A stretch of DNA of 31,850 nucleotides from a virus. The notes beneath the pieces are model-generated. The model made no database searches. It had not been told where the DNA came from and was given only the letters and a program-made list of their open reading frames with translations. Position numbers and translations under genes: made by a program. The stretch is taken from the IMG/VR virus record IMGVR_UViG_3300030109_000245, positions 1-31,850 of that record. One strand, written 5' to 3'. Positions 6,209-31,850 of the stretch are shown one piece after another (positions within the stretch are counted from its first letter, which is position 1; each line of letters starts with the position of its first letter).

Positions 6209-9200
6209 ATGTCATCTTTGTACGAAAAATATAAGTATGAAAATAATTTAAAGTCAGTAAACGATTTAGAAGAATTACGTAGACTTTATAATAATAATCC
6301 CACTTACAAAAAAGAATTTGGATTTGCAGAATTTGTAGATATTGCTACTAAAAATTCTAGTGAACCTTTAAGTTCTGAAATAAAAAATATTGTATCTCCT
6401 GAAATAAAACCTGACCCTTTAGAAGCAGACCCTAACTTTTATAAAAAACAATTTAAACCAACTTATCAAGATTGGATAGGCGATAACATGCCTTTAAAAA
6501 ATTATAGAAAAACTGTGGGTGGTATAGCTAATGAATTATTTACAGGTGGTGCAAAATTAGTAAGTGAAGCTGCTTTAAAATTAAACACTTATGGACAAAG
6601 AGAAACTTTAGAAAAAATTGCTAAAGATAAAAATATTTCTTATAGTGAATTAGTAAATCAAATAGAAAAAGATAGTAATAAAAGAATAGATAAAGGTTCA
6701 GCTACATTATTAAGACCAGTAGTAGGTGCTGATATTTACGATGGAGATACTATTCAACAACCAGAAGGTATTATAGGAACTGGAGCAGTAACTATAGCAC
6801 CTTTTGTAAGTGTATTTCGTAGAGCTAGAAACTTATTTGGTACTCGAGCTGATGATGCTTTAAAAAGAACAGGTAAAAAAGCAGACACTAAAAAACTTTT
6901 AACAGCTAAAAAAATTGAACTAGGTAAAGATTTAGCTGCTGCTGAAATATCATCGCAAGTTTTATTTGCAGATGACCCTGAAGTATTTATGGTTGCTAAA
7001 TATATTAATGAAAATATAGAGAATACTGTATTAGATGATAGTTTTGTTGGAGACTTTTTTGAATATTTAGATGCTGATGAAAATAGTAGTTCTACTCAAC
7101 GAAGATTAACTCTATTATTAGATGGTGCAGTTTTTACTGGTATTATAGGAGGAGGCTTAAAAACTGTGTCTCTTACTAAAGATAAGTTAGCTGAAGTATT
7201 AAAAAGAATAAAAAGTAATTCAGAATTAAAAGAAGGATTTAAAAGAATGTTAGCTCCTTTAAAAGAAAAATTAGAACCTTTTACTCCTAATAAAATTAAA
7301 GACAAAGTAGATGATGATGTTTTTGTAGACATACCTTTAGAAGGTCGTGGTATTAAAAGAGAAGCTACTAGAATTTTAAATGGTGTTAGAAAGCTTAGAA
7401 GAAAATATTTTACTTCTAGAGGTTATTATAATTCTGAAATGCATAACATTATTTTAGATGGTGAATTAGCTAAAGCTGGATTTGAAAAACAAGCAAAAAA
7501 TTTATTAGATGATTTAACTTATCAATCTAAACAGCTTGTAAAAGAAGGTGAATTTAATGGTTCTCAGGTTACTAAAATGTTAGAAGATTATTTATCTGGT
7601 AATATAAAATTAAAAGAATTACCTGAAGGATTACAGAGTGTAGCTTTAAGAACTAGAGATACTATAGATGATTTAAGTAATTTATTATTAGAACAAAAAA
7701 ATATACCTGAAGATTTAAAATTTGTTATTAGAAGTAATATAGGTAAATATTTAAGAAGAAGTTATGAATATTTTGAGAATCCTAGTTATAAACCAAGTCA
7801 AGATGTTATAGATGGAGCAGTTGAAAGTATTGCTGAAAAATTAGCTGGTAGGTCTATTCAAACTTCTTTATTTGATGATACTGCAAAATTAAGCATAGAT
7901 AAATATAGAGATGAGGCTAAAGAAATTGTAGAGGGTTTATTAGGCGATAGAAAAAATATGGACTTTTATTTAGATAAAGTTTATGGATTTAAAAAAGCAG
8001 ATATTTTATTTCAAACTAGAAAAGAAATAGATGAACCTTTACGTAAATTTTTTGGACAAAGAGAAACTGAAGACATAGGAAAAACTGTTTTTACCACAAT
8101 AGAAACTCTTGGAAAATATTTGTCTGATGCTAAAATGTATGATGATTTATATACTAAAGGTAAAGGTAAATGGTTTTTTGAAGAAACAACCGATGCAGTA
8201 ACAAGAACTAGAACATCCGGAGTTATTCAAGGTAAACAATTTGGTGCGTTAGATGGAATGAGAACCACTAAACAAATAGCTAAGTTTTTTGAAAAGACTT
8301 CTACTGGTACTTTTGAAAGATTATTATCTCCTTTATTAGCTGTAAAAGGTGTTGGACAAGCTGTTGCAACTGTATATAGTTTTACAACTCATGCTCGTAA
8401 TACTATTGGTGGTGGTATTATTATGGCACAAAATGGATTAAATCCTTTTGATAAAGAAACTCGAAATGCTTTTAAAACTTTAACAAATGAATTATATACT
8501 AGAACCCCTAATAAAAATAAAGCTTTAGAAGATTTATATATTAAATATCAAAACCTTGGCATAGTAAATCAAAACGTTAGAATAGGTGAATTTAAAAAAT
8601 TAATAAATGAAAATATAACAGATGCTAATTGGGTAAAAAAATTAGACAGAGCATTTGCTGGTCAAGCTTATGGTGGTGCTAAAAAATTATTTAATAAAGT
8701 AACAGATACTTTTAATAAAACTTATGTAGCTGAAGATGATATATGGAGAATAGCTTCTTTTCAAAAAGAATTAAATGTTCTTAAAAAAGCATTTCCTAAT
8801 AGAAGTATAGATGAATTAGAAAGAGAAGCAGCTACTATTATTAGAAATACTTTCCCTACTTATAATTTAGTTCCTTTAGGAGCTAGAGAATTAAGAAAAG
8901 TGCCTGTATTTGGTAACTTTTATTCTTTCTTTGCAGAAAGATGGAGAAATAATTATCATACTTTAATGAGAGGTATGGAAGAAATTAGGTCAGGTAATCC
9001 AGACTTAATTGAAAGAGGTTACCAGAGATTAGCTAGTCAAATGGCTGTGGGTTATTTAGGTAGTGAAGGTGTTAATAGATTTACTAAATATGCATTTGGT
9101 GTTAGTGATGAAGAAGAACAGGCTATAAAAGATTTAGCATTACCACCTTGGTCAAATAATGGAACTATAGGATATAAACGTGATAAATTTGGTAATATAT

Positions 9201-11415: not shown

Positions 11416-11765
11416 TGGAGTCGGCAGTAGCACTAATAACTGAATTAGGTTTTCCTATTGCAGCAGCTTTAGGACTAGGTATTTTTGTTTGGAAACTTAT
11501 CAATAGAATTATTGATGGTATGGAAACTAAACTAGATACTTTAGATGAAAAAGTACAGACTGCATTAGACACTATGGAAGAAAGGGTGTCAACTAAACTT
11601 GATAGTCAATATGGTATTATTGTGAGTTTAATTGATAGAGTAAGAGCATTGGACAATCAAAGTATTAGACAAGATGTATTGTTAAAGACTTTGGTAGGTG
11701 TCCCAAATTTAATTGATTTAGAAAAAATAGCAAAGGCAGAGAGAGATGACCAAAGAAAAGATTGA
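11415..11765 (+). CDS. Membrane-anchored coiled-coil protein, possible holin accessory
   Basis: 116 residues. One membrane segment lies at about 8-30 (ITELGFPIAAALGLGIFVW), followed by a long regular coiled coil with repeats such as METKLDTLDEKVQTALDTME and VSTKLDSQ. The C-terminus is charged. The layout resembles hemolysin XhlA-like or other holin-associated phage proteins, and a smaller protein of the same design is at 333-575. It begins in the stop of the holin gene and its 3' end overlaps csgF by 20 bases, so the lysis block runs directly into the curli cassette on one message. Confidence 0.6.
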   Translation: MESAVALITELGFPIAAALGLGIFVWKLINRIIDGMETKLDTLDEKVQTALDTMEERVSTKLDSQYGIIVSLIDRVRALDNQSIRQDVLLKTLVGVPNLIDLEKIAKAERDDQRKD

Positions 11766-12213
11766 GATGGCAACATTAGTAAGTATATTTTTATTAGCAT
11801 TATTTGCAGTAACAGATATAAAAGCTGATGAGATGGTACATCAATTTAAGAATCCCAGTTTTAGTGGGATAGGTACTTCTGCACATTATCTTACCATAGA
11901 GAATCAAGAGTTCTCAAGAAAGATGACTATCAAAGAAGAACTAAAAGCTATTCAAGAACAAATAGAAAGAGATAAAGAGAACACTACACTAGCAAGGTTT
12001 ATAAGAAACTTAGAGTCTAGAATATACGCACAGCTATCAAGACAGCTAGTAGAAAATTTATTTGGTGAGACTCCAAGTACAAGTGGCATATTAGAATTAG
12101 AAGGTAATACTATTGAGTATAGTATTGAAGATGGAATTATAACATTAAGGATTGTAGATGCAGATGGGAATGAAACAATTATTGAGTTGCCTATTGGCGA
12201 TTTCTCTTTTTAG
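11746..12213 (+). CDS. csgF: CsgF-like curli assembly protein
   Basis: 155 residues with a signal peptide (hydrophobic core TLVSIFLLALFAV, likely cleaved near DIKA-DE; Met8 is a possible alternative start). The mature N-terminus MVHQFKNPSFSG aligns with the MTFQFRNPNFGG start of E. coli CsgF, the segment that plugs into the CsgG pore. ESRIYAQLSRQLVENLFG matches the TQAIQSQILGGLLSN helix, and the C-terminal beta strands IEYSIEDGIITLRIVDADGNE match the E. coli C-terminal sheet. Length is close to the family's (138 in E. coli). In bacteria CsgF couples secretion through CsgG to fibre nucleation at the cell surface. It is directly followed by csgG. Finding it in a lysis-adjacent phage operon is unusual. 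Confidence 0.88.
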   Translation: MTKEKIEMATLVSIFLLALFAVTDIKADEMVHQFKNPSFSGIGTSAHYLTIENQEFSRKMTIKEELKAIQEQIERDKENTTLARFIRNLESRIYAQLSRQLVENLFGETPSTSGILELEGNTIEYSIEDGIITLRIVDADGNETIIELPIGDFSF

Positions 12214-13018
12214 TGGTTGTGCAGTATTAAGTAAAAACAACGATTTAGTTTTAACAAAAAAAATAGAACCTGCTAACGTATTAGATTTACAATCTACACA
12301 GTTAGCTGATTTACCTCCTGCAAAAATTAAACCAATTATAGCAGTATATGCTAACAGTTTTCAAGACTTAACAGGGCAAAGAAAAAGTAATAGTAGCTTT
12401 GCTTTATTTAGTACAGCAGTTACTCAAGCTCCAGAAGCATTGCTTATCAGAGCTTTAAAACATGCTGCTAATGGTGAATTTTTTAGAGTTGTCGAAAGGG
12501 TAGGGTTAGATAATCTTACCAAAGAACGACAACTAATCCGGTCAACTAGAGAGAACTTTGAGGAAGACTTAAAACTACAACCCTTACTATTTGCTGGTCT
12601 TATAGTACAAGGTGGAGTTATAAGTTATGATACAAACATTCAATCTGGTGGTATTGGGGCACGTTACTTAGGAATAGGTAACACGAAACAATACCGAGAA
12701 GACGTAGTAACTATATCATTGCGATTAGTTTCTGTGTCAACTGGTGAAATATTATTAGAGACTACGGTATCTAAAAATGTTTTATCAACAAGTGTGTCTC
12801 AAGATGTCTTCCGATTTATTGAAGCTGGTACTGAACTAGTAGAAATAGAAGGAGGCATCGCTGAGAACGAGGTTGGCTCTATTGCTTTGCAAAAGGTAAT
12901 AGAGACAGCAGTTTTTAATTTAATAGAAATAGGAATAGAGAGAGGGTATTGGGAATATGAAAATATTAAAATTATTGACCCTTGCAATGATGTTGAATGT
13001 ATCATTGTACGGGGCTGA
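12158..13018 (+). CDS. csgG: CsgG-like outer-membrane curli secretion channel lipoprotein
   Basis: 286 residues. It has a lipoprotein signal peptide with lipobox LFSGC (acylated Cys21). The start at 12158 is supported by TAAGGA six bases upstream and by the need for the signal peptide. Family signatures are strong: IAVYANSFQDLTGQRK, NFEEDLKLQPLLFAGLIVQG, and NIQSGGIGARYLGIGNTKQY followed by TISLRLVSVSTGEIL, which align almost residue for residue with E. coli CsgG (277 residues). CsgG forms a nonameric ungated channel in the outer membrane that exports curli subunits. Its first 56 bases overprint the end of csgF, and its last 62 bases overprint the start of the curlin-like gene. No CsgE-like gene is present. 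Confidence 0.93.
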   Translation: MQMGMKQLLSCLLAISLFSGCAVLSKNNDLVLTKKIEPANVLDLQSTQLADLPPAKIKPIIAVYANSFQDLTGQRKSNSSFALFSTAVTQAPEALLIRALKHAANGEFFRVVERVGLDNLTKERQLIRSTRENFEEDLKLQPLLFAGLIVQGGVISYDTNIQSGGIGARYLGIGNTKQYREDVVTISLRLVSVSTGEILLETTVSKNVLSTSVSQDVFRFIEAGTELVEIEGGIAENEVGSIALQKVIETAVFNLIEIGIERGYWEYENIKIIDPCNDVECIIVRG

Positions 13019-13670
13019 CAACGAAATATATATAGACCAATCAGGTGATACTGCTAATATAGACTTAGAGCAACTTGGTTCAGGCAACATTATAGGTGGG
13101 CTTGATTCTACTGCTGGAAGTTTAACTCCATTAGATTTGGATGGTAATACTTTGGATTTAATATTAAATCAAATAGGTGACAGTAATACATTTCTTGGTG
13201 ATATACTAGGAGATAATATTGTTGGTTACTTTAATTTTGATGGTAATTCAAATACATTTACTATTCAAGTTGACCCTACTAATACTTATGGTGCTGATGG
13301 TTCTAATCTAAATGTTCAAGCTACTGGTGACAGTAACACATTTAACTTGGATTTAGCTACAAATGCTATAGCAAGTAATACAGATTTAGATTGGATTATT
13401 AATGGTAGTAGTAATACTTTAACATTCGATATAGATGTTGATGGTGCTACTTCCTTTGTAGATATAGATGGAGATAGTAATACTGTAACTTATGATGGTG
13501 ATGGCTATGCTAATGGTTATTTTTATTTAGACCAAACAGGTAGTTTAAGAACCTTTAATATACAACAACAGAGTACTTTAGCAAGTGATTGGCTCAAGAT
13601 TATTTCAAATGGCGATTCTGGTACTGTTTGTGTTATCCAAGACGATGGTGGCACAGCAGTCGGATGCTAA
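12957..13670 (+). CDS. Curlin-like secreted repeat protein, probable CsgG substrate
   Basis: 237 residues with a clear signal peptide (MKILKLLTLAMMLNVSLYGA-DN). The mature start IYIDQSGDTANIDLEQLGSGN fits the curlin repeat pattern (I-x-Q-x-G-x-x-N, then Q-x-G-x-x-N). Further irregular repeats centre on GDSNTF or a similar motif: QIGDSNTFLG, DGNSNTFTIQ, TGDSNTFNLD, NGSSNTLTFD and DGDSNTVTYD, spaced about 25-50 residues. It is acidic, rich in Asn, Asp, Gly and Thr, and ends with two Cys (GTVCVIQDD, VGC). This fits an amyloid-type or beta-solenoid fibre subunit exported by the adjacent CsgG, equivalent to CsgA/CsgB. The classical strict Ser-Gln-Asn ladder is only partly kept, so amyloid formation is inferred. 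Confidence 0.75.
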   Translation: MKILKLLTLAMMLNVSLYGADNEIYIDQSGDTANIDLEQLGSGNIIGGLDSTAGSLTPLDLDGNTLDLILNQIGDSNTFLGDILGDNIVGYFNFDGNSNTFTIQVDPTNTYGADGSNLNVQATGDSNTFNLDLATNAIASNTDLDWIINGSSNTLTFDIDVDGATSFVDIDGDSNTVTYDGDGYANGYFYLDQTGSLRTFNIQQQSTLASDWLKIISNGDSGTVCVIQDDGGTAVGC

Positions 13671-14694
13671 TATTGGAAGCGTAACAGAATTTAAAGGAAC
13701 AGGCAGGATTGTAAGGGATAAACCTTATGATGCTGCCTTGTTTTTTGGTATTGAAAGTTATGATAATGTTGAGACTACTAACGGTAGGATTGGTATAACA
13801 TTTCTTAATGATACTAAGGTTAGATTAACAGAGCACTCACAGTTACTCATTGATGAGTTTATCTACGACCCTGACCCATCAAAGTCTAAGATGGCTTTGC
13901 AGTTTGCAAGTGGGACAGCAAGATTTATTACTGGTAAATTAAATACTATTAATAAAGAGAACATTGCTATTAGTACTCCAAGTGCTAACGTATCAATTCG
14001 TGGTACAGATTTTACAGTAACAGTAAATGAACTTGGTGAAAGTTTAATTATACTATTACCAAAAGATGATGGTACTCCAAGTGGTGAGATAATTGTTGCT
14101 ACTGCTGTAGGTGAGGTTATACTTAATCAACCCTATCAAGCTACTACAGTTTCTATGTTTGAAACTGAGCCTACTAAGCCTGTAATATTAGATATAACAC
14201 TTGAACTAATAGACAATATGTTGATTGTTAATCCACCAAAGGAGGATATAAATGTTACTGAGAAGAGTGTGTCAAGTAATAGTAGTAACTTACTTGATGT
14301 TGATTATCTTGAGTTTGAGGACTTGGATGTAGACTATCTAGCTAATGATGATTTAGAATTTACAGAGCTAGATATAAATTACCTTGACGTGAATTTTTTA
14401 GAGGACTTGCTTGACATCATACAGGATGTTAATGAGCTTGACCAGACTGAAACTTTACTTCAAGCTAGTTTAGATTTAAAAGGTACAACATTAGGGTTTG
14501 ACCCTGATACACAAATAAATACTTTTACTACAGATAATACTATAACTTTTATTAGAGCATTAGAAAATACAGTAAGAGTAGATTTAGATAAAAATAATGC
14601 TTATACTGTTATCTTAGTACAAAATGGTAAGAGCACACAGATTATAGTAAACGGTGGTAGCTCGTCAACCATAACAATAAAACAAAATGATTAG
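13585..14694 (+). CDS. Secreted FecR-domain protein with acidic decad repeats
   Basis: 369 residues from a GTG start; an ATG at 13609 is an alternative and no clear Shine-Dalgarno sequence decides. The signal peptide core is MAILVLFVLSKTMVA. Residues about 55-190 form a FecR domain (PF04773): GRIGITFLNDTKVRLTEHSQ, ALQFASGTARFITG and the hallmark ISTPSANVSIRGTDFTVTV. Residues 237-276 carry four 10-residue acidic units (LDVDYLEFED, LDVDYLANDD, LEFTELDINY, LDVNFLEDLL), followed by a beta-rich C-terminal domain. FecR-domain proteins of this type are usually periplasmic or surface proteins, often encoded next to CHASE2 cyclases, as here two genes downstream. This is not a sigma-factor regulator: no N-terminal anti-sigma region or TonB-system gene is present. 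Confidence 0.8.
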   Translation: MIGSRLFQMAILVLFVLSKTMVAQQSDANIGSVTEFKGTGRIVRDKPYDAALFFGIESYDNVETTNGRIGITFLNDTKVRLTEHSQLLIDEFIYDPDPSKSKMALQFASGTARFITGKLNTINKENIAISTPSANVSIRGTDFTVTVNELGESLIILLPKDDGTPSGEIIVATAVGEVILNQPYQATTVSMFETEPTKPVILDITLELIDNMLIVNPPKEDINVTEKSVSSNSSNLLDVDYLEFEDLDVDYLANDDLEFTELDINYLDVNFLEDLLDIIQDVNELDQTETLLQASLDLKGTTLGFDPDTQINTFTTDNTITFIRALENTVRVDLDKNNAYTVILVQNGKSTQIIVNGGSSSTITIKQND

Positions 14695-15142
14695 ATTATT
14701 ATTACTAGGATTACTATGTAGTCCATTATACGCAGAGTTAGATTTAACTTTACCACCTATTCCAGATGAAGAAATTGTAGAGTTAGAAAAAAAGTTTAGA
14801 GATAACTTTAATTTTATAGAAATAAAAGAACCTCCAACAAAACAGCAAAGAATTATTTATTGGACATTAAATGCTTTAGATGTTTACACAACTTATGAAG
14901 GATTAAAAAATCCTAATATAGCAGAAGCTAATCCTATAATAGGTAAAAGACCATCATTAGAAAAATTAGTAGTTCATAAAATTATATTTGCTGGATTGAT
15001 TGGAGAAAACTTAAACACTTATAGCTATACTCTTATAAATACAGCTTTAGGTATAGCAGTAGTAAGAAATATTTATATAATTAATACTACTTCTCCTTGT
15101 ACTATAAATTTTAATTTCGATGGCTCAAGAGTACCTTGTTAA
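14687..15142 (+). CDS. Exported DUF5658-like protein
   Basis: 151 residues with a short signal peptide (MIRLLLLGLLCSPLYA-EL). The region RIIYWTLNALDVYTTYEGL followed by EANPIIGKRPSLEKLVVHKI resembles the DUF5658 pattern (LD-TT---GL, then E-NP). Two hydrophobic segments, about residues 97-110 (KLVVHKIIFAGLIG) and 115-132, could lie in the inner membrane. Two Cys lie near the C-terminus. It overlaps the FecR gene by 8 bases and the cyclase by one base (TAATG), so it is tightly coupled to both. Its function is unknown. A membrane partner for the FecR protein or the cyclase is a guess from position. Confidence 0.6.
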   Translation: MIRLLLLGLLCSPLYAELDLTLPPIPDEEIVELEKKFRDNFNFIEIKEPPTKQQRIIYWTLNALDVYTTYEGLKNPNIAEANPIIGKRPSLEKLVVHKIIFAGLIGENLNTYSYTLINTALGIAVVRNIYIINTTSPCTINFNFDGSRVPC

Positions 15143-16893
15143 TGAGATACGCAAGTTTACTATTAGGATTATTAACATTACCTTTGTTATTTAATTTTGC
15201 ACCATTAGAAGTACTAAGACTAAAAACCTTTGATGCTCTAGTACAAACACCAGAGCCTTCAGGTCATTTTACTATATTAAATATTACAGAGGAAGATGTA
15301 CAACTTAAAGGTGGTTATCCTTTTCCTCGTCAAGACTTAGCAAGTATTCATCTTGAGTTACTTAACAAAGGTGCACTAGGTGTTGGTTGGGTAATATTAT
15401 TTCCACAAGATGACAGGTTTGGTGGTGATAAAATATTCTCTGATGTATTAAGCTATGCACCAAGTGTGTTAGCTATGCCAGAGTTTGACAATGGTATGTA
15501 CCCAGAAACTCATGGTACTGTTATTCTTGGACCAGATGTAGAGTTACCAAAGGCAAAAGGATTTTTACAGAATATAAGACCTTTAAGTAATTCAGCTACG
15601 CAAGGTGCTGTGTCTGCTCCAGTAGATGTTGATAACCTTGTAAGAAGATTACCATTACTACAACAAACACCTGATGGTTGGGTTGCTGCTTTTGGTACAG
15701 AAGTATTAAAGACTTTAGCTGGTGCTAATACTTATCAGATAAAGACCAACGAGAATGGTATAGAGATGATAAGAGTAAAAGGTTTACCACCTATTAGTAC
15801 AGACAGTTTAGGTAGAAAGTGGATTAGTTGGGTAGATACTAATCAAACAACATTAGAAGAGATGGATGTTGAGGGTACATTTGTTTTTGTTGGCGTGACT
15901 GCTGCTGGTGTAATGCCACAGTTAGCTACACCAAAGGGACTATTAGAACCTCATAAGATACAGGCAGCTTTAGCTGAAAGTATTTTAATAGACTCACCTC
16001 AGATTCCAGATTATAGATTATTTATAGAACTTATTTTATTATGCATTTCAGGATTATTAATCGTCTTCGTGATAAATCATTTTGGTATTACTATGGGTGC
16101 ATCATTGGCAGGTACGCTGATACTGTCGATGGGTGGGCTCGGTTACTATTTAATTTTTCGAGGCTTTTTAGTTGATGTAACATGGAGTATGACATGTATG
16201 ACACTTTTGTCATTACAACAATTCTATTTAAGATTCAGAGAGCAATACAAACTAAGACAACAAATCAAGAAACAGTTTGGTCATTACCTTGACCCAAGAC
16301 AAGTAAAACAATTACAAGAAAATCCTGGACTGTTAAAGTTAGGTGGTGAAAGAAAGTATTGTACCATGTTGTTTACTGATGTCAGAGGCTTTACAAACTT
16401 ATCAGAACAATTAGAACCAGAACAAGTAACAGAGTTAATGAACAAGACATTAACCATACAAGCTACTGCAGTTAAGAAGTATGGTGGTATGGTTGATAAA
16501 TATATAGGTGATGCGATGATGGCTATCTTTAATGCACCAATAGACTTAGACATGCATGAGGACAGAGCAATCCTTACAGCTATAGAAATAAAAGAAAAGA
16601 TGGAAGAAGCAGACTTAGGTATTGAAATTGGTATAGGAATCAATTCCGGTATAGTTATGCTGGGGAACTGTGGGAGTGAAGATAGGTTTGATTATACTGC
16701 TATAGGTGCAGATGTAAACCTTGCAGCTAGATGTGAGAGTAGTTGTAAAGCTGTAGGCAGAGATATAGTCATAGCAAAGAATACTGCTCAAGAAACAGAC
16801 ATACCTTTAGTTAAGTTAGAACCGATAGCAATGAAAGGGATAGCAGAGCCAGTAGAAATATATACTACAATAGACTTGACAAAACCTGAATAA
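15142..16893 (+). CDS. CHASE2-domain class III adenylate cyclase, membrane sensor type
   Basis: 583 residues from ATG 15142, which overlaps the previous TAA; an in-frame TTG at 15136 is less likely. An N-terminal membrane anchor (about 4-20) is followed by an extracytoplasmic CHASE2 domain (about 25-285; LRLKTFDALVQ and the PFPRQDLASIHLELLNKGA pattern). Three membrane helices (about 292-312, 316-338, 343-362) lead to a cytoplasmic class III cyclase domain (about 405-560). All six key residues are visible: metal Asp413 (FTDVRGFT) and Asp457, Lys453 (DKYIGDAMM) and Thr519 (DYTAIGADVN), which select adenine, and Asn526 and Arg530 (VNLAAR) for the transition state. It should make cAMP from ATP in response to an envelope signal. 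This is very unusual in a phage. It ends the curli-FecR cassette. Confidence 0.92.
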   Translation: MRYASLLLGLLTLPLLFNFAPLEVLRLKTFDALVQTPEPSGHFTILNITEEDVQLKGGYPFPRQDLASIHLELLNKGALGVGWVILFPQDDRFGGDKIFSDVLSYAPSVLAMPEFDNGMYPETHGTVILGPDVELPKAKGFLQNIRPLSNSATQGAVSAPVDVDNLVRRLPLLQQTPDGWVAAFGTEVLKTLAGANTYQIKTNENGIEMIRVKGLPPISTDSLGRKWISWVDTNQTTLEEMDVEGTFVFVGVTAAGVMPQLATPKGLLEPHKIQAALAESILIDSPQIPDYRLFIELILLCISGLLIVFVINHFGITMGASLAGTLILSMGGLGYYLIFRGFLVDVTWSMTCMTLLSLQQFYLRFREQYKLRQQIKKQFGHYLDPRQVKQLQENPGLLKLGGERKYCTMLFTDVRGFTNLSEQLEPEQVTELMNKTLTIQATAVKKYGGMVDKYIGDAMMAIFNAPIDLDMHEDRAILTAIEIKEKMEEADLGIEIGIGINSGIVMLGNCGSEDRFDYTAIGADVNLAARCESSCKAVGRDIVIAKNTAQETDIPLVKLEPIAMKGIAEPVEIYTTIDLTKPE

Positions 16894-16904
16894 GACTCTA
16901 TAAT
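16876..16904 (+). promoter_or_regulatory. Perfect consensus sigma70 promoter for hsp20
   Basis: TTGACA at 16876-16881, a 17-base spacer and TATAAT at 16899-16904 match the consensus at all 12 positions. The -35 lies within the last codons of the cyclase gene and the -10 just after its stop. Transcription should start near 16911, giving hsp20 its own message apart from the late operon. A host-type promoter fits the lack of a phage RNA polymerase in the window. Confidence 0.85.
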
Positions 16905-16910
16905 ATAAGT

Positions 16911-16962
16911 AAGAGTGTGCGAATGGTCGGCACTCAATAACTTGCTTTATTAAGGAGTTAAT
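16911..16962 (+). promoter_or_regulatory. ROSE-like RNA thermometer in the hsp20 5' leader
   Basis: The predicted leader of about 52 bases folds into two hairpins. The first pairs GAGTG (16913-16917, plus a U-G) with CACTC (16931-16935). The second pairs CTTGCTT (16941-16947) with AAGGAG (16952-16957) across a TATT loop, hiding the Shine-Dalgarno sequence and leaving G16944 bulged. TTGCT opposite AGGA with a bulged G is the hallmark of ROSE elements, which control small heat-shock genes in proteobacteria. The start codon follows at 16963. Temperature control is inferred from the structure. Confidence 0.65.
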
Positions 16963-17376
16963 ATGACACATTTAAAAGCATTTGGACAATTCAGTCCGTT
17001 CTCAGTTGGGTTTGATGAAATCTTTGATACACTTCAAAGAGCATCAATACCTCAAACAAACTACCCACCTTATAACATAGTTAAATCAGGTGAGGCATAT
17101 CGAATCGAAATAGCAATGGCAGGATTTAAAGTCGAAGACATTGATGTTGAGGTTAAAGATAAAACACTTACTGTATCTGCTGTACAAACAGATGAGAAGA
17201 AAGGAGTAGAATATATCCATAAGGGTATATCTGAAAAAGACTTCACTAAAACATTTGCTCTAGCAGAGTATGTTGAAGTAAAAGATGCAGTAGTTGTTGA
17301 TGGTATCTTGGTGATTGAACTGGAAAAGAACATTCCAGAAGAAGAAAAACCTAAAAAGATACGTATATCCAGCTAA
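16963..17376 (+). CDS. hsp20: Small heat-shock protein, Hsp20/alpha-crystallin family
   Basis: 137 residues, IbpA-like in size. The N-terminal arm holds FDEIFDTLQRAS. The alpha-crystallin domain covers about 35-125 (YNIVKSGEAYRIEIAMAGFK, then VEDIDVEVKDKTLTVSA, then DGILVIELEK). The C-terminus has the I-x-I anchor motif (IRI, residues 133-135). AAGGAG lies five bases before the ATG. It is an ATP-independent holdase that keeps unfolding proteins soluble; Hsp20 genes are known in marine T4-like phages, where a role in virion assembly or stress survival has been proposed. Here it has its own consensus promoter and a thermometer-like leader, and it is the last plus-strand gene before the convergent boundary. 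Confidence 0.95.
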   Translation: MTHLKAFGQFSPFSVGFDEIFDTLQRASIPQTNYPPYNIVKSGEAYRIEIAMAGFKVEDIDVEVKDKTLTVSAVQTDEKKGVEYIHKGISEKDFTKTFALAEYVEVKDAVVVDGILVIELEKNIPEEEKPKKIRISS

Positions 17377-22888: not shown

Positions 22889-23294
22889 TTTCTAGCTCTT
22901 TATATGTTTTAAAGACATCAGATGTAAATAGTTTCTGTATATTTACTAACCACATCTTACTTGCTTTGTTGTCACCACCACAAACAGACTTCTTAAAATC
23001 TAATTTATCAATCAGTTGTTTTAGTTTAGGGACATCAAATATAAACGTACAGAATATATCATCATCAATACAAAGATTATGAAACCAATAGTCTGATTCA
23101 GTAGCACAGATACCAGATGGTTTACCATATGATTCATACTCAATACATATGTTACCAGTCTTCATCCACATACCACGTTCTGACTTGACCTCAATCTTTT
23201 TATTAGTTAGCATATCTGCTATCCTATCTTCTCTTATCTGACCATACTCTAAGTCTAGGTCAAACTTCTTTCTATTTTCTTTAGTGGGTTTCAC
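22881..23294 (-). CDS. Putative PD-(D/E)XK endonuclease (T7 gp3-position)
   Basis: 137 residues from a GTG start, with GGAGG well placed upstream. IADMLTNKKIEVKSERGMWMKTGN carries an E-x-K catalytic pattern (KIEVKSER) and is followed by the CIEYES strand with a conserved-looking Glu. An acidic residue upstream (DLEYGQ/IRED) could complete a PD-(D/E)XK site. Between DNA polymerase and exonuclease, this is where T7-like phages keep the Holliday-junction endonuclease. Family naming is uncertain. It overlaps the polymerase stop by 14 bases and the exonuclease start by 8. Confidence 0.7.
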   Translation of the reverse strand: MKPTKENRKKFDLDLEYGQIREDRIADMLTNKKIEVKSERGMWMKTGNICIEYESYGKPSGICATESDYWFHNLCIDDDIFCTFIFDVPKLKQLIDKLDFKKSVCGGDNKASKMWLVNIQKLFTSDVFKTYKELENE

Positions 23295-25002
23295 TCCAAT
23301 TACCTCCTATTTTATATTCACCAGTTAAATCACATCGCATTTTAAATTGCTCTGTTACCTTCTCAATACACTCAACACCTACTCTTCCTACAGAGTCAGC
23401 TTGAGATTCTTTGACTTGTAGTTGCCATTCATCATGGATGTTAGCAACAAACTTAGCATCATAAGTATTTAACTTAATCAACTCATATAAATTTATCATA
23501 GCTTGTTTCATTACAATAGCACCACTACCTTGTAGTAAAGTATTAAGTGCAGCATGAGGACTTCTTACATATATCTTTCTACCATCAATACCTTTTAAGA
23601 AACCTCTGTTGGCAGCTTGTTGTACTCTGTCACGTAAAGTTTTTAATGCTGGTAAGTTAGCAAAGAATCTTTGTTTCAATGCTTTACCTTTCTTCATATC
23701 ACCATTAATTATCTTACCTATCTTCGCATCACCAGCACCATAGACTAAAGCATAGATAAATGTCTTAGCTTGGTCACGTGTCTTTAGTCCAGCAAGTTCT
23801 TGATTGGTTGTATGGATGTCACCATTAACAACATCCTCAATGTAATCAGCATCATTCATGTAGTGAGCTAACATACGTAACTCTAAACCACTAGCATCAA
23901 TACCAACTAACTTATAGCCATCCGGTACAGTCCAACAAGCACGACACTCTTCACCGTAAGGACTATGTATGTTAGGGACTTGAGCCATGTTAGGACCTCG
24001 ATGTGTCATCCTCCCTGTAATAGTACCATTAGGTATAACCTTACCATGTACTCTATCATCTTTAACAACATCAATCCAAGATGATACTTGAGCTATACGT
24101 TTCTGATATAATAAGAAATCAGCAATTAGTTTAGCTTCTTTGATGTGGGTAATCTTTTTAAGTGTACTCTCATCCACAATAGGTTGACCAGTAGGAGTAA
24201 ACCTTTCTGGTTGCCAACCAAAGTCAACAAGATACTCACCTATTTGTTTACGACTACCGAGATTAAAGTCAACTAACTTCTTACGCATGAAGGGTTGAAA
24301 GTTTTGTGTGTTCATACAATGCACATACTCCTCATCTGTAAGTCCTCGCTTACTAAGTTCACCATCCTTCTTAATGTAAGGTGTAACTTGTTTATCATCA
24401 ACCCACTTAGGTTTAAATGTTTTCTGTACTTCATCCTCTACATCTGCCATCTTTTGTTTAAGCTCTGCTAACAAAGTCATAGCTTGTTTACTATCAAAAT
24501 AAAAACCATTTCTTTCTTGTTCACATATAATAGCAGAAGTCATTTGCTCTAAGTCAAAGGACTGCTTACTAAATCCTAGTCCTTCTTTCTGTAAGAACTT
24601 ATATACAGCTTCATTCAGTTTAACATCCTGTACACAATAGTCTAGCATTTGTGGTGTATAGTTATTAAACTCTGGTTGTTCTTGTTTAGGTATACCTAAT
24701 CTATAACCCCAAGTCTTGAGACTATGTCCATTCTCTCTGACTGGATTGTAAAGTCTTGACATAACAAGAGTATCAATTACCTTACCTCGATACACAAAGT
24801 TATGTAATCGTTTAAGTATCTGTAAATCAAAACCTATAATGTTATGACCAATTAAAACTTTAGCACTATGTAATAAGTCTAGTGCATCTTCAATTTGATT
24901 TGGTCCAAACTTATATACTTGTCCATCAACTTGTTTAGCTACAATACACCATATCTTAGTAGCATCAAGGTCATCTGTTTCTATATCAAAAATAAGATTC
25001 AT
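23281..25002 (-). CDS. Family A (T7-type) DNA polymerase with 3'-5' exonuclease
   Basis: 573 residues, against 704 in T7. Proofreading motifs: Asp6 and Glu8 (LIFDIETDD), Asp59 (GHNIIGFD), Tyr122 and Asp126 (DYCVQD). Polymerase motifs: TGRMTHRGPNMAQVPN, motif A GIDASGLELRMLAHYM, motif B RDQAKTFIYALVYGAGDAKI, motif C ANIHDEWQLQV. Motif B has Tyr at the position of E. coli Phe762 (T7 Tyr526), a state found in lytic phages. The shorter length suggests that the T7-type thioredoxin-binding insert is absent, so processivity may come from another factor. It replicates the phage genome with the adjacent primase-helicase and SSB, and overlaps the helicase gene by 17 bases. Confidence 0.96.
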   Translation of the reverse strand: MNLIFDIETDDLDATKIWCIVAKQVDGQVYKFGPNQIEDALDLLHSAKVLIGHNIIGFDLQILKRLHNFVYRGKVIDTLVMSRLYNPVRENGHSLKTWGYRLGIPKQEQPEFNNYTPQMLDYCVQDVKLNEAVYKFLQKEGLGFSKQSFDLEQMTSAIICEQERNGFYFDSKQAMTLLAELKQKMADVEDEVQKTFKPKWVDDKQVTPYIKKDGELSKRGLTDEEYVHCMNTQNFQPFMRKKLVDFNLGSRKQIGEYLVDFGWQPERFTPTGQPIVDESTLKKITHIKEAKLIADFLLYQKRIAQVSSWIDVVKDDRVHGKVIPNGTITGRMTHRGPNMAQVPNIHSPYGEECRACWTVPDGYKLVGIDASGLELRMLAHYMNDADYIEDVVNGDIHTTNQELAGLKTRDQAKTFIYALVYGAGDAKIGKIINGDMKKGKALKQRFFANLPALKTLRDRVQQAANRGFLKGIDGRKIYVRSPHAALNTLLQGSGAIVMKQAMINLYELIKLNTYDAKFVANIHDEWQLQVKESQADSVGRVGVECIEKVTEQFKMRCDLTGEYKIGGNWSETH

Positions 25003-26650
25003 TTGTAAATGTTTCCTCCTCTGTCACTTCATGTAATCTACCAGTATCAATGTCATATTTTAAACTACAAGCCATACCAGTATCACCAGTATACCTTGAC
25101 TTCAAGACTCTAACCTTAGTCATGTTAGCTTCCTCTGGATTCTCTGCTTGTTGATTTCTCTCTAATGCAATAACACAATCAGACAATTGTGCTATTCCTT
25201 GTGAACCTTTGAGATGAGAAAGGGACACTTGTATACCTTTTTCATGTCCTCTATCGCCTTGTGCTCTACGTAAATGTGATACCAGTATCATACCTACACC
25301 AGTCTCTTCAACTAAGCTACGCAATCTATTCATTAACATATCAATACCACGTCTCTCGTCACCCTCAGTTAGTACGTTGACAAGCATATGTAGGTGGTCA
25401 ACTACAACCCAGTCACACTCACACCCTACAATAATATATCTTAGCTTAGAAAATATCTCATCAATGTCTGTCGCACCAAGATGAGCATGGATAAATACTC
25501 TGCCCTTCTCAATAGCTTTGTCAAACAAAGTATGGAGTTCATCGCTTGTATACTTAGAACGTTTCTCTGATAAGTATATCCTATCATTGGCTTCAATAGA
25601 TACAATACCATCGGCAGTACGTAACCAGTTCTCCTCTAGTGCTACAATACCTACATTGTCTTTTGTGTTCTTAATTAAATGATGTTCAAGTTCTCTAGTC
25701 ACACTAGACTTACCTAGTCCTGTACCACCTGTCAAGGTGACCAACTCACCCTTACGCATACCATAGAGTTTCTTATTCAGTCCTTCCCAAGGATAAGCTA
25801 CACTTTCTTTCTCTTCTCTGTGTAGCCACTCATCCTTCTTACTGGATAGTTCCATGATACCAGAGGGAGTATAAGTCTTGGCTTCCCACCAAGCAGTAGA
25901 GAACTCTTGGAACTTCTTCTTAGCTAACATCTCGTTAGCATCTTTGTAACCATTGGGTAAGTTTATTATCTTTGCCTTACTTGGCTTAAGGATTCTTGCA
26001 ACCTGTCTAGCAGATTCAATCCCAGCTTTGTCATTGTCAAAACAAAGAACAACATTATCAAATGATTCTACAAACTCAATGCTCTCTCGTATATCTTTAA
26101 CAGCAGATGAAGCTCCACGTTTAATAGATACTACACTAGACTTACCTTGCATAAGTTCATAGACTGCCATTGCATCACACTCACCTTCGGTTATGGTTAA
26201 ATACTTACCACCTTTGTTGCGATACAGTTGCTCACCGAACAACCCTGTCCCTTCAAACGTACCATTGCATGAGAAGTTCTTGTTGTCTACATACCTAGTC
26301 TTAGTTGCAACTATCTCACTTCCATTATGAAACGGATAAATATGTTGCTTGACTTGACCAGCATGGTCTTTGACAACCTTCACACCAAACTTTCTTGCAG
26401 TTTGTTCTGATATATTTCTATCAGTCAATGGTGCATATACTCCTGTGTATGAGTTTAAGAATGATGTCTCTGGTTGTTTCATGGGTACAATAGTGTTAGT
26501 ACTTGTACTCATATCATCTGCTTTGTCATAGTCTGGAAAAAAAGTATTACAGCTAAAACATTTAGCAGACCCATCAGCATTCAAAGAAACAGCATCACTA
26601 CTATCACACTTGGGACAGGGTAGCTTATGTTTAATAAATTTTGTATTCAA
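24986..26650 (-). CDS. T7 gp4-like primase-helicase
   Basis: 554 residues (T7 gp4: 566). The zinc-binding domain has Cys12, Cys15, Cys31 and Cys34 (CPKCD, CFSC), with exactly T7's 3-16-3 spacing. The TOPRIM primase shows Glu155 (LTITEGECDA) and Asp205/Asp207 (VLCFDNDKAG). A linker leads to a DnaB-type helicase with Walker A at 308-315 (GGTGLGKS), Walker B VVVDHLHML, and SHLRRAQGDRGHEKGIQVSL. It makes RNA primers and unwinds the fork. The start codon is TTG, with AGGAG six bases upstream. A gap of about 99 bases to the preceding gene holds no convincing frame. Confidence 0.96.
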   Translation of the reverse strand: MNTKFIKHKLPCPKCDSSDAVSLNADGSAKCFSCNTFFPDYDKADDMSTSTNTIVPMKQPETSFLNSYTGVYAPLTDRNISEQTARKFGVKVVKDHAGQVKQHIYPFHNGSEIVATKTRYVDNKNFSCNGTFEGTGLFGEQLYRNKGGKYLTITEGECDAMAVYELMQGKSSVVSIKRGASSAVKDIRESIEFVESFDNVVLCFDNDKAGIESARQVARILKPSKAKIINLPNGYKDANEMLAKKKFQEFSTAWWEAKTYTPSGIMELSSKKDEWLHREEKESVAYPWEGLNKKLYGMRKGELVTLTGGTGLGKSSVTRELEHHLIKNTKDNVGIVALEENWLRTADGIVSIEANDRIYLSEKRSKYTSDELHTLFDKAIEKGRVFIHAHLGATDIDEIFSKLRYIIVGCECDWVVVDHLHMLVNVLTEGDERRGIDMLMNRLRSLVEETGVGMILVSHLRRAQGDRGHEKGIQVSLSHLKGSQGIAQLSDCVIALERNQQAENPEEANMTKVRVLKSRYTGDTGMACSLKYDIDTGRLHEVTEEETFTNESYF

Positions 26651-27012: not shown

Positions 27013-27426
27013 TTAAAACTCCTCGTTACTATCAAAAAATTCAGAGCCGTCCTCTGCTTTATATTCCACTAGCTCTATGACTTGAACACCCTGTAGGTCG
27101 AGACTTTTGCCAGTCTTACCAGCATACTCCCAATCAAATTCACTACATTGTACTCTTACCTTAGAGCCATTACCAACAGCTAGATTAATGTCTTGCTTGT
27201 TAGCATCAAGTAATCTTGGTGCATTCCTAATCATACCATTAGGACCATTCACCTTTCGCTTGATAACTAAAGCTGGACCTTCATCCATCTGCTTTACTGT
27301 GTGTCCACGTCCAGCAAAACCATCTGCTGTCTCTTGGTCAACAACAAGGTTGACTGTATACACAGGTTCAAAAGTCGTATTGGGTGTCTTAATACTTGCC
27401 CAATACGCAGTTCCTTCTACTATCAT
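27013..27426 (-). CDS. Single-stranded DNA-binding protein, T7 gp2.5-like role
   Basis: 137 residues. The beta-rich sequence (GTAYWASIKTP, PVYTVNLVVD, ALVIKRKVNGPNG, KVRVQCSEFDWEYAGKTG, LDLQGVQVIEL) fits a single OB-fold of the kind annotated as phage SSB or DUF2815-like. The C-terminus is acidic and ends in Phe (GSEFFDSNEEF), the T7 gp2.5 hallmark that binds polymerase and helicase. It is the first replication gene of the minus-strand operon, has GGAGG before its ATG, and follows a structured leader of about 130 bases driven by a near-perfect promoter. Confidence 0.8.
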   Translation of the reverse strand: MIVEGTAYWASIKTPNTTFEPVYTVNLVVDQETADGFAGRGHTVKQMDEGPALVIKRKVNGPNGMIRNAPRLLDANKQDINLAVGNGSKVRVQCSEFDWEYAGKTGKSLDLQGVQVIELVEYKAEDGSEFFDSNEEF

Positions 27427-29377: not shown

Positions 29378-29728
29378 TTAACTTTGTTGATACCAATACT
29401 CTATACCATCAAAATCAACAGTATCGTAATTGTATTGTTGGTCTCGTGCAAAAGCTTCTATGTCTATATAACAATGTAAAGCTTCATCTATATCAGCAAA
29501 GTCAAAAAAGTAATCTTCCATATAGTCTACAAAATAACTATCTCTAATAAAAAATACTCCAAACTCTAAGTCTTTCAAGCCCTCAGTATAGTTATCACAA
29601 TATTGATTTAATATACTTTGTAATGCTTTTACTTCATCTTTAAAGTCTGCATCATCTTCATACTTTTCTATATAATCAAGTATGTTTCGACTATCTATTA
29701 CGTCATCACTATTTGTTATATCATTCAT
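29378..29728 (-). CDS. ArdA-like acidic protein, candidate anti-restriction factor
   Basis: 116 residues from the ATG at 29728; an earlier in-frame ATG (29734) lies too close to TTGGAG. Strongly acidic. The C-terminal half, GVFFIRDSYFVDYMEDYFFD then CYIDIEAFARDQQYNYDTVD then FDGIEYWY, matches the ending typical of ArdA-like proteins (YF-EY--E, then YID-EA-ARDL--DY--V-FDG--Y). ArdA proteins mimic bent B-form DNA and block type I restriction enzymes. The protein is shorter than canonical ArdA (about 165 residues), so only the C-terminal domain type may be present. Location among early genes fits defence against the host. The family assignment is tentative. Confidence 0.5.
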   Translation of the reverse strand: MNDITNSDDVIDSRNILDYIEKYEDDADFKDEVKALQSILNQYCDNYTEGLKDLEFGVFFIRDSYFVDYMEDYFFDFADIDEALHCYIDIEAFARDQQYNYDTVDFDGIEYWYQQS

Positions 29729-29791
29729 AATCATTCTCCAAGTTAATTAATTTAAGTAGGCACTTTAAAGTGATACCTAGCACTATATAGT

Positions 29792-31295: not shown

Positions 31296-31323
31296 ATTAT
31301 TCATATATTTTTTATCATGTCAA
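31296..31323 (-). promoter_or_regulatory. Sigma70 promoter at the head of the early operon
   Basis: On the minus strand, TTGACA (31318-31323, 6 of 6), 16 bases and AATAAT (31296-31301, 5 of 6). The expected start site is about 31288-31289, exactly at the first gene's ATG. It is the outermost minus-strand promoter seen, next to the origin-like region. Confidence 0.7.
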
Positions 31324-31412: not shown

Positions 31413-31432
31413 GAGGGCTTTAGAGGGCTTTA
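31413..31432. repeat. Tandem 10-base repeat GAGGGCTTTA
   Basis: Two perfect adjacent copies at 31413-31422 and 31423-31432, upstream of the iterons. They may be part of the origin architecture or a protein-binding site. Confidence 0.6.
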
Positions 31433-31460
31433 GAATTAGTTTGAGAGTATGTTAGCTTTT

Positions 31461-31656
31461 AAAGTCTGTAAAGTCTGTGGAGTTTTACTGTATGAAATCC
31501 ACGCTTCAAAACTTTTAAAACTTCATTAACTAGATTATCTTTTTAATTTTTATAATCTTTTTCTGGCTCTTGTTAGGTTTTGAAGTCTGGAAAGTCTGTA
31601 AAGTTATCCACAAGCTATAAAGTCTGTGGATAAACTGTGAACATCTTAAAGTCTTG
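31461..31656. repeat. AAAGTCTGT iterons
   Basis: Copies of a 9-base word AAAGTCTGT: 31461-31469, 31470-31478, 31591-31599 and 31619-31627 are perfect, with variants at 31582-31590 (GAAGTCTGG) and 31648-31656 (AAAGTCTTG). Pairs are head to tail in strict 9-base register, and at 31600 the register runs directly into a DnaA box. Direct repeats of this type are initiator-binding iterons in plasmid and phage origins. Confidence 0.75.
31604..31633. other. Two perfect inverted DnaA boxes
   Basis: TTATCCACA at 31604-31612 and its exact reverse complement TGTGGATAA at 31625-31633 both equal the consensus high-affinity DnaA box. They face each other 12 bases apart, with an iteron between and overlapping the second. 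I saw no others in the window. They imply that host DnaA binds the phage origin. Confidence 0.8.
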
Positions 31657-31659
31657 ATA

Positions 31660-31697
31660 TACTGTACGTTTATATAGTACTGTACATTTATACAGTA
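31660..31697. promoter_or_regulatory. Tandem LexA-like (SOS) boxes
   Basis: TACTGTACATTTATACAGTA (31678-31697) differs from the E. coli LexA consensus at two positions and keeps the CTGT-N8-ACAG core perfectly. An adjoining copy, TACTGTACGTTTATATAGTA (31660-31679), has four differences. They overlap by two bases, 18 bases apart. They are candidate binding sites for host LexA or a phage repressor, placed just after the iterons and DnaA boxes. Confidence 0.65.
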
Positions 31698-31722: not shown

Positions 31723-31850
31723 TGTATATATGTAATGCTTATACAAAATTACAAAAACTAGGTATTAACCAGATAGCTAACAACAGGTTAACGACCCGAC
31801 TATATAGTCTTTAATAATTTTAAAGGAAATTTAGATATAATATAGCCATT

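Follow-up and report, generated by a model that had tools for sequence, protein, structure and literature searches.

How do T7-like marine phages in which no RNA polymerase gene is found begin to copy their DNA? This question is raised by a 31,850-bp virus record from IMG/VR (hereafter the window, the whole stretch of DNA that was analysed), in which two DnaA boxes face each other. Judging from the nucleotide pattern here and in related phages, we consider it highly probable that the stretch at ~31450-31650 is an array that recruits host DnaA, and the array probably serves as the replication origin of the phage.

The window covers part of a ~50-55 kb podovirus of the HTVC103P type, a marine phage with T7-type DNA-copying machinery. 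Rightward structural genes occupy the first ~11.8 kb and a cargo block follows up to 17.4 kb; the replication genes point leftward and span 31.3 to 17.7 kb. Besides an exonuclease-like protein and ribonucleotide reductase, the replication block encodes the following three proteins.

24986..26650, minus strand: T7-type primase-helicase
23281..25002, minus strand: family-A (T7-type) DNA polymerase
27013..27426, minus strand: gp2.5-like single-strand-binding protein

The nearest cultured phages are the pelagiphages HTVC103P, HTVC104P and HTVC115P (primase 45-47%, polymerase 49-50%). They have the genome layout, the replisome type and the lack of an RNA polymerase in common with the window, but HTVC103P and HTVC115P differ in having no DnaA array. 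Members of this group carry HMO-2011-like morphogenesis genes, and the host of the metagenomic relatives is partly unknown (PMC8528129). The window was assigned to the group by its HTVC103P-like primase and polymerase, its convergent structural and replication blocks and HMO-2011-like packaging genes, of which the terminase genes are known only from relatives because the window ends just before terS (small terminase), within a short leftward ORF of which G014 has the complete version. This genome and G001 (53.5 kb with overlapping ends, giving a unit of ~50.5 kb) are its closest metagenomic relatives. No DNA similarity of the array region to named phages was found. The cargo block (11746-17376) is unusual for a phage and encodes CsgG, a curlin-like repeat protein, a FecR-domain protein, a CHASE2-adenylate cyclase and Hsp20. 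The cyclase proved uninformative as a host indicator, as its full-length matches are only 26-30% identical and come from scattered bacteria. A 118-aa early protein (29378-29734) has a weak match to ArdA (antirestriction) below the cut-off.

A first, sequence-only reading had reported two perfect DnaA boxes facing each other with 12 nt between them. This is exact, and they are the sole exact TTATCCACA occurrences within 31,850 bp.

31604..31612, plus strand: DnaA box 1, TTATCCACA, perfect
31625..31633, minus strand: DnaA box 2, TGTGGATAA, perfect
31636..31644, minus strand: degenerate DnaA-like box, TGTGAACAT, 11 bp past box 2; relatives have TGTTAATAA

Single boxes occur at chance level in the window (4 matches to TTWTNCACA versus 5.5 expected), and a pair of perfect boxes within 30 bp arose in none of 1000 dinucleotide shuffles. 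Box 2 is retained in G001, G014 and locus L106; the position of box 1 reads TTATCAACA in the first two and is perfect in the third. The window's array is among the weaker ones: its phased-array score of 3.1 sd lies near that of the highest shuffle, and its helical phasing involves one box pair and one weak site only, the phasing proper being found in relatives. The region was also said to be non-coding, which our comparison bears out, since stops and a frameshift interrupt the frame through the array among the closest relatives; a small coding gene is thereby ruled out, although G014 happens to keep a 47-aa frame open through this stretch. We found no tRNA in the region and rejected a structured RNA at the array, as no Rfam family came near its gathering score and no fold beat shuffles. 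The description of the region as AT-rich is only weakly borne out: GC is 29.5% versus 33.1% in the whole window.

The boxes lie among copies of a second motif, AAAGTCTGT.

31450..31484, plus strand: 35-bp direct duplication, copy 1; copy 2 (31571-31605) is 86% identical; carries repeat pairs
31461..31478, plus strand: two head-to-tail AAAGTCTGT repeats
31591..31599, plus strand: AAAGTCTGT repeat, with a degenerate copy, GAAGTCTGG, just before it at 31582
31619..31627, plus strand: AAAGTCTGT repeat overlapping DnaA box 2

These had been read as six 9-base iterons in fixed register. Four are exact (starting at 31461, 31470, 31591 and 31619), which exceeds chance (shuffle maximum 1), but those at 31582 and 31648 have two mismatches and no single register holds: start-to-start distances of 9, 112, 9, 28 and 29 bp do not make a regular iteron array. 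The two copies of the duplication are 121 bp apart. The motif is confined to the closest relatives and missing from most array lineages, and on sequence grounds it is a feature of this sublineage, not a general element. A general iteron origin was ruled out for the same reason. Plasmid origins combine iterons with DnaA boxes (PMC4980987), and those of P1 and RK2 resemble the window in having short direct repeats adjoining DnaA boxes. By analogy, a phage Rep protein might bind the AAAGTCTGT repeats while DnaA merely assists, as the four exact copies, one of them overlapping a DnaA box, would suggest. We consider this very improbable: the repeats are 9 bp long, irregularly spaced, partly the product of duplication and sublineage-specific, and there was no Rep-like family match among the early ORFs tested, many of which are unknown proteins.

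Because the region adjoins terS, we chose 80 terS-anchored loci for comparison, many of which are related, so that counts are not independent. Across these related loci, 67 perfect boxes lie in the 218 kb upstream of terS versus 11 in the 283 kb downstream, and arrays are found 0.3-1.9 kb from terS. After clustering into 28 groups we counted 17 boxes, compared to 0.84 ± 1.16 for 300 permuted 9-mers (maximum 8). At least two boxes occur in five of the 28 groups, and permuted motifs never gave more than one such group. Together with the shuffles, these permutations rule out a chance origin of the box pair and of the relatives' boxes. Pairs of TTATNCACA on the same strand within 150 bp are spaced only by 11, 21, 22, 31, 42-44, 54, 64, 65, 75, 85 or 86 bp, which are whole helical turns only (mean resultant 0.946 at a 10.75-bp period for 24 listed spacings that are not fully independent); opposite-strand pairs are spaced by 21, 22, 43, 44 or 99 bp. 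Degenerate boxes stand between the strong ones at 9+2 bp (11-bp) steps, and in L170 they form a series of TGTTAATATGC-type units of which the last is TGTGGATAA. Phased-array scores reach 16-26 sd over shuffles in L104, L130, L134, L140, L145 and L170, are ~3-7 in the window, L106, L107, L110, L115 and L173, and remain at background in many other loci, including those of HTVC103P and HTVC115P. About half of the relatives have no array, these two cultured phages among them. A terS tree places the array-bearing loci in a single large clade, within which the array was apparently lost several times (9 label changes; clade support is modest and recombination possible). A wider sampling of IMG/VR for contigs with two boxes 21 or 22 bp apart yielded more distant contigs: L230, L248 and L267, in which the polymerase is of HTVC103P type and a set of 4-9 perfect boxes precedes the primase gene by ~4 kb, and L236, which has 8 boxes and a T7-type primase.

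These arrays resemble E. coli oriC in their perfect TTATCCACA boxes, degenerate boxes at 11-bp steps, whole-turn spacing and intergenic, AT-rich surroundings, and in some lineages also in their oppositely oriented half-arrays. Unlike oriC, they belong to a phage that itself encodes a T7-type primase-helicase and polymerase, there is no adjacent dnaA, and perfect boxes number just two in the window. According to a review of oriC, strong boxes there nucleate arrays of weak boxes in opposite orientations, and the spacing may change by whole turns but not by part of a turn (PMC4285127). Since the phage arrays likewise vary by whole turns only, we infer cooperative assembly of DnaA, and binding of DnaA to the array is very likely given this pattern. 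The boxes could instead be a decoy that titrates host DnaA and halts replication of the host chromosome, several boxes per genome being multiplied by many genome copies per infected cell. Titration would require neither helical phasing nor a fixed place, and two perfect boxes in the window are few; we regard such a role as very improbable.

The helically phased rows of boxes in relatives suggest that the host initiator starts replication of these phages. At such an origin, host DnaA would bind the strong boxes and extend onto the phased weak ones, and the DnaA complex would then melt neighbouring AT-rich DNA. The phage primase-helicase would load on the opened strands, a handover that we consider plausible, and synthesis by the phage polymerase would proceed outward along the genome. 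Early genes would be transcribed by host RNA polymerase. Two further elements lie beside the boxes.

31512..31562, unstranded: AT-rich low-stability stretch, candidate unwinding element, conserved in the closest relatives
31296..31323, minus strand: sigma-70-like promoter of the early operon, TTGACA-N16-AATAAT

The first is not unique, as several other stretches of the window are equally unstable. The second is the early promoter that the sequence-only reading had placed next to the array, and we recovered it as a leftward sigma-70-like promoter at 31323-31296. DnaA acts as a transcription factor near the lambda origin, and the array might likewise govern early transcription by host RNA polymerase, and replication would then begin from host transcripts or at another site. 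In favour of this, L134-/L140-type loci have strong sigma-70-like promoters at 74-120 bp from the array, and perfect promoters read through it in L110-/L115-type loci. The geometry varies, however: the promoter precedes the array by 285-331 bp, or follows it by 74-120 bp or, in the window, by 303 bp. Promoters on either side at differing distances make a fixed role in promoter control less likely, and long phased arrays exceed the needs of a simple operator; overall, we judge this explanation unlikely.

GC skew, which had been suggested as a check, agrees with an origin at the array but is confounded by transcription and gene direction. In G001, G004, G020 and G021 the skew reaches its minimum 0.2-0.8 kb away from the array. 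Same-strand genes between the array and terS have a coding-strand skew below that of genes beyond the array in 11 of 11 loci, a comparison of two genes per locus in related loci, uncorrected for composition. The proximity to terS (0.3-1.9 kb) would also suit a role at the genome end, in which DnaA bound to the DNA that enters first would influence entry, protection of the end or packaging; such a role has been proposed for the injection-stop region of T5. The T5 injection-stop signal is described as containing DnaA boxes (PMC13250531). SP6-like ZK1, phiEap-1, Shigella A7 and Vibrio BD1 have DnaA arrays close to their genome ends. The SP6-like Klebsiella phage vB_KpnP_ZK1 resembles our loci in its non-coding location, several perfect DnaA boxes and ~21-bp period, and T5-like EPS7 in its non-coding location and several perfect boxes with a LexA-like box beside them. 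They differ in the place of their boxes, which is a genome end or the injection-stop region, and in that an RNA polymerase is present in the SP6-like group. Among the relatives of the window, G001, G020 and G021 have their overlapping ends elsewhere, with no terminus at the array, and contig ends near terS fall at differing positions. A genome-end role is quite unlikely in our estimation. DnaA-box-like arrays occur near the genome ends of OK625527 (nt 1-205; L396), KT321314 (nt 69-181), MK685668 (nt 22-173) and PV244424 (nt 47136-47189), all of them named phages of the SP6-like group, of other Autographiviridae or of Vibrio; this may be a wider pattern that has drawn little notice.

Does DnaA take the place of a phage RNA polymerase? 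The phages resemble T7 (Autographiviridae) in their T7-type primase-helicase, family-A polymerase and gp2.5-like single-strand-binding protein. T7 lacks an array and has a single perfect DnaA box, at 8255; unlike T7, the relatives tested have no single-subunit RNA polymerase. PF00940 was absent from all of these relatives, including six near-complete metagenomic genomes >50 kb and two cultured isolates, and the T7 and HTVC019P controls matched. The lack of a phage RNA polymerase first noted in the window, which is itself incomplete, is thus confirmed for the group, and it implies that early genes are read by host RNA polymerase. The further proposal that DnaA is recruited instead of the polymerase fared unevenly: the phased arrays of relatives speak strongly for recruitment, but replacement is only inferred, and it is weakened because array-less relatives, including HTVC103P and HTVC115P, also have no polymerase. 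Moreover, the terminal region of SP6-like Klebsiella phages contains DnaA arrays although their reference relative SP6 carries an RNA polymerase gene, and T5-like EPS7 holds DnaA boxes, so an array need not replace an RNA polymerase.

The flanks of the array hold three elements, all of which the sequence-only reading had overlooked, although the first two lie within the interval it marked.

31660..31679, unstranded: imperfect LexA-like box, TACTGTACGTTTATATAGTA
31678..31697, unstranded: LexA-like box, TACTGTACATTTATACAGTA, 2 mismatches to the gammaproteobacterial consensus
31725..31819, unstranded: family-conserved non-coding element of ~100 bp, in relatives with and without DnaA array

The LexA-like boxes form a tandem (31660-31697; TACTGT-N8-ACAGTA), the second of which is missing in G001 and G014. 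LexA-like boxes are also present in L103 (-511 of terS) and L108 (-376 of terS), and their pairing with DnaA boxes recurs in EPS7 (NC_010583; L395). HTVC103P encodes an 85-aa protein, gp30, that contains a LexA DNA-binding domain (PF01726). The element at 31725-31819 is strongly conserved near terS (35 terS loci) and contains an imperfect dyad, TTAACCAG...CTAGTTTA; it may be a packaging site, a promoter or a regulator. Beside the DnaA arrays a GAGGGC motif recurs, as GAGGGCTTTA twice in the window (31413-31432) and as GATTGAGGGC in others (L134-/L140-type). At about -1430 to -1160 of terS, L140-type loci have a conserved ~90-aa gene (MENTFDIN...) that adjoins the array and has no confident family; its product could act at the origin.

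DnaA-box origins as such are already known. In the open-access literature searched, we found no report of DnaA boxes in HMO-2011-/HTVC103P-type phages, and for PseuGes_254 there is an Ori-Finder prediction only. What is new, as far as that literature goes, is a phased DnaA array that recurs in T7-replisome phages without an RNA polymerase. We tentatively propose, as a possibility of nearly even standing, that a widespread marine branch of T7-replisome phages has swapped an RNA-polymerase-primed start for an oriC-like phased-DnaA origin that feeds the phage primase-helicase, with LexA-type control possible in the window's sublineage. How replication starts in the RNA-polymerase-less relatives of T7, which are abundant marine phages, would then have a concrete answer for many of them in the phased DnaA array. 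If this is true, phage replication would be coupled to the abundance of the host initiator and to its ATP state, and a T7-type helicase would be able to use DnaA-opened DNA in place of DnaB.
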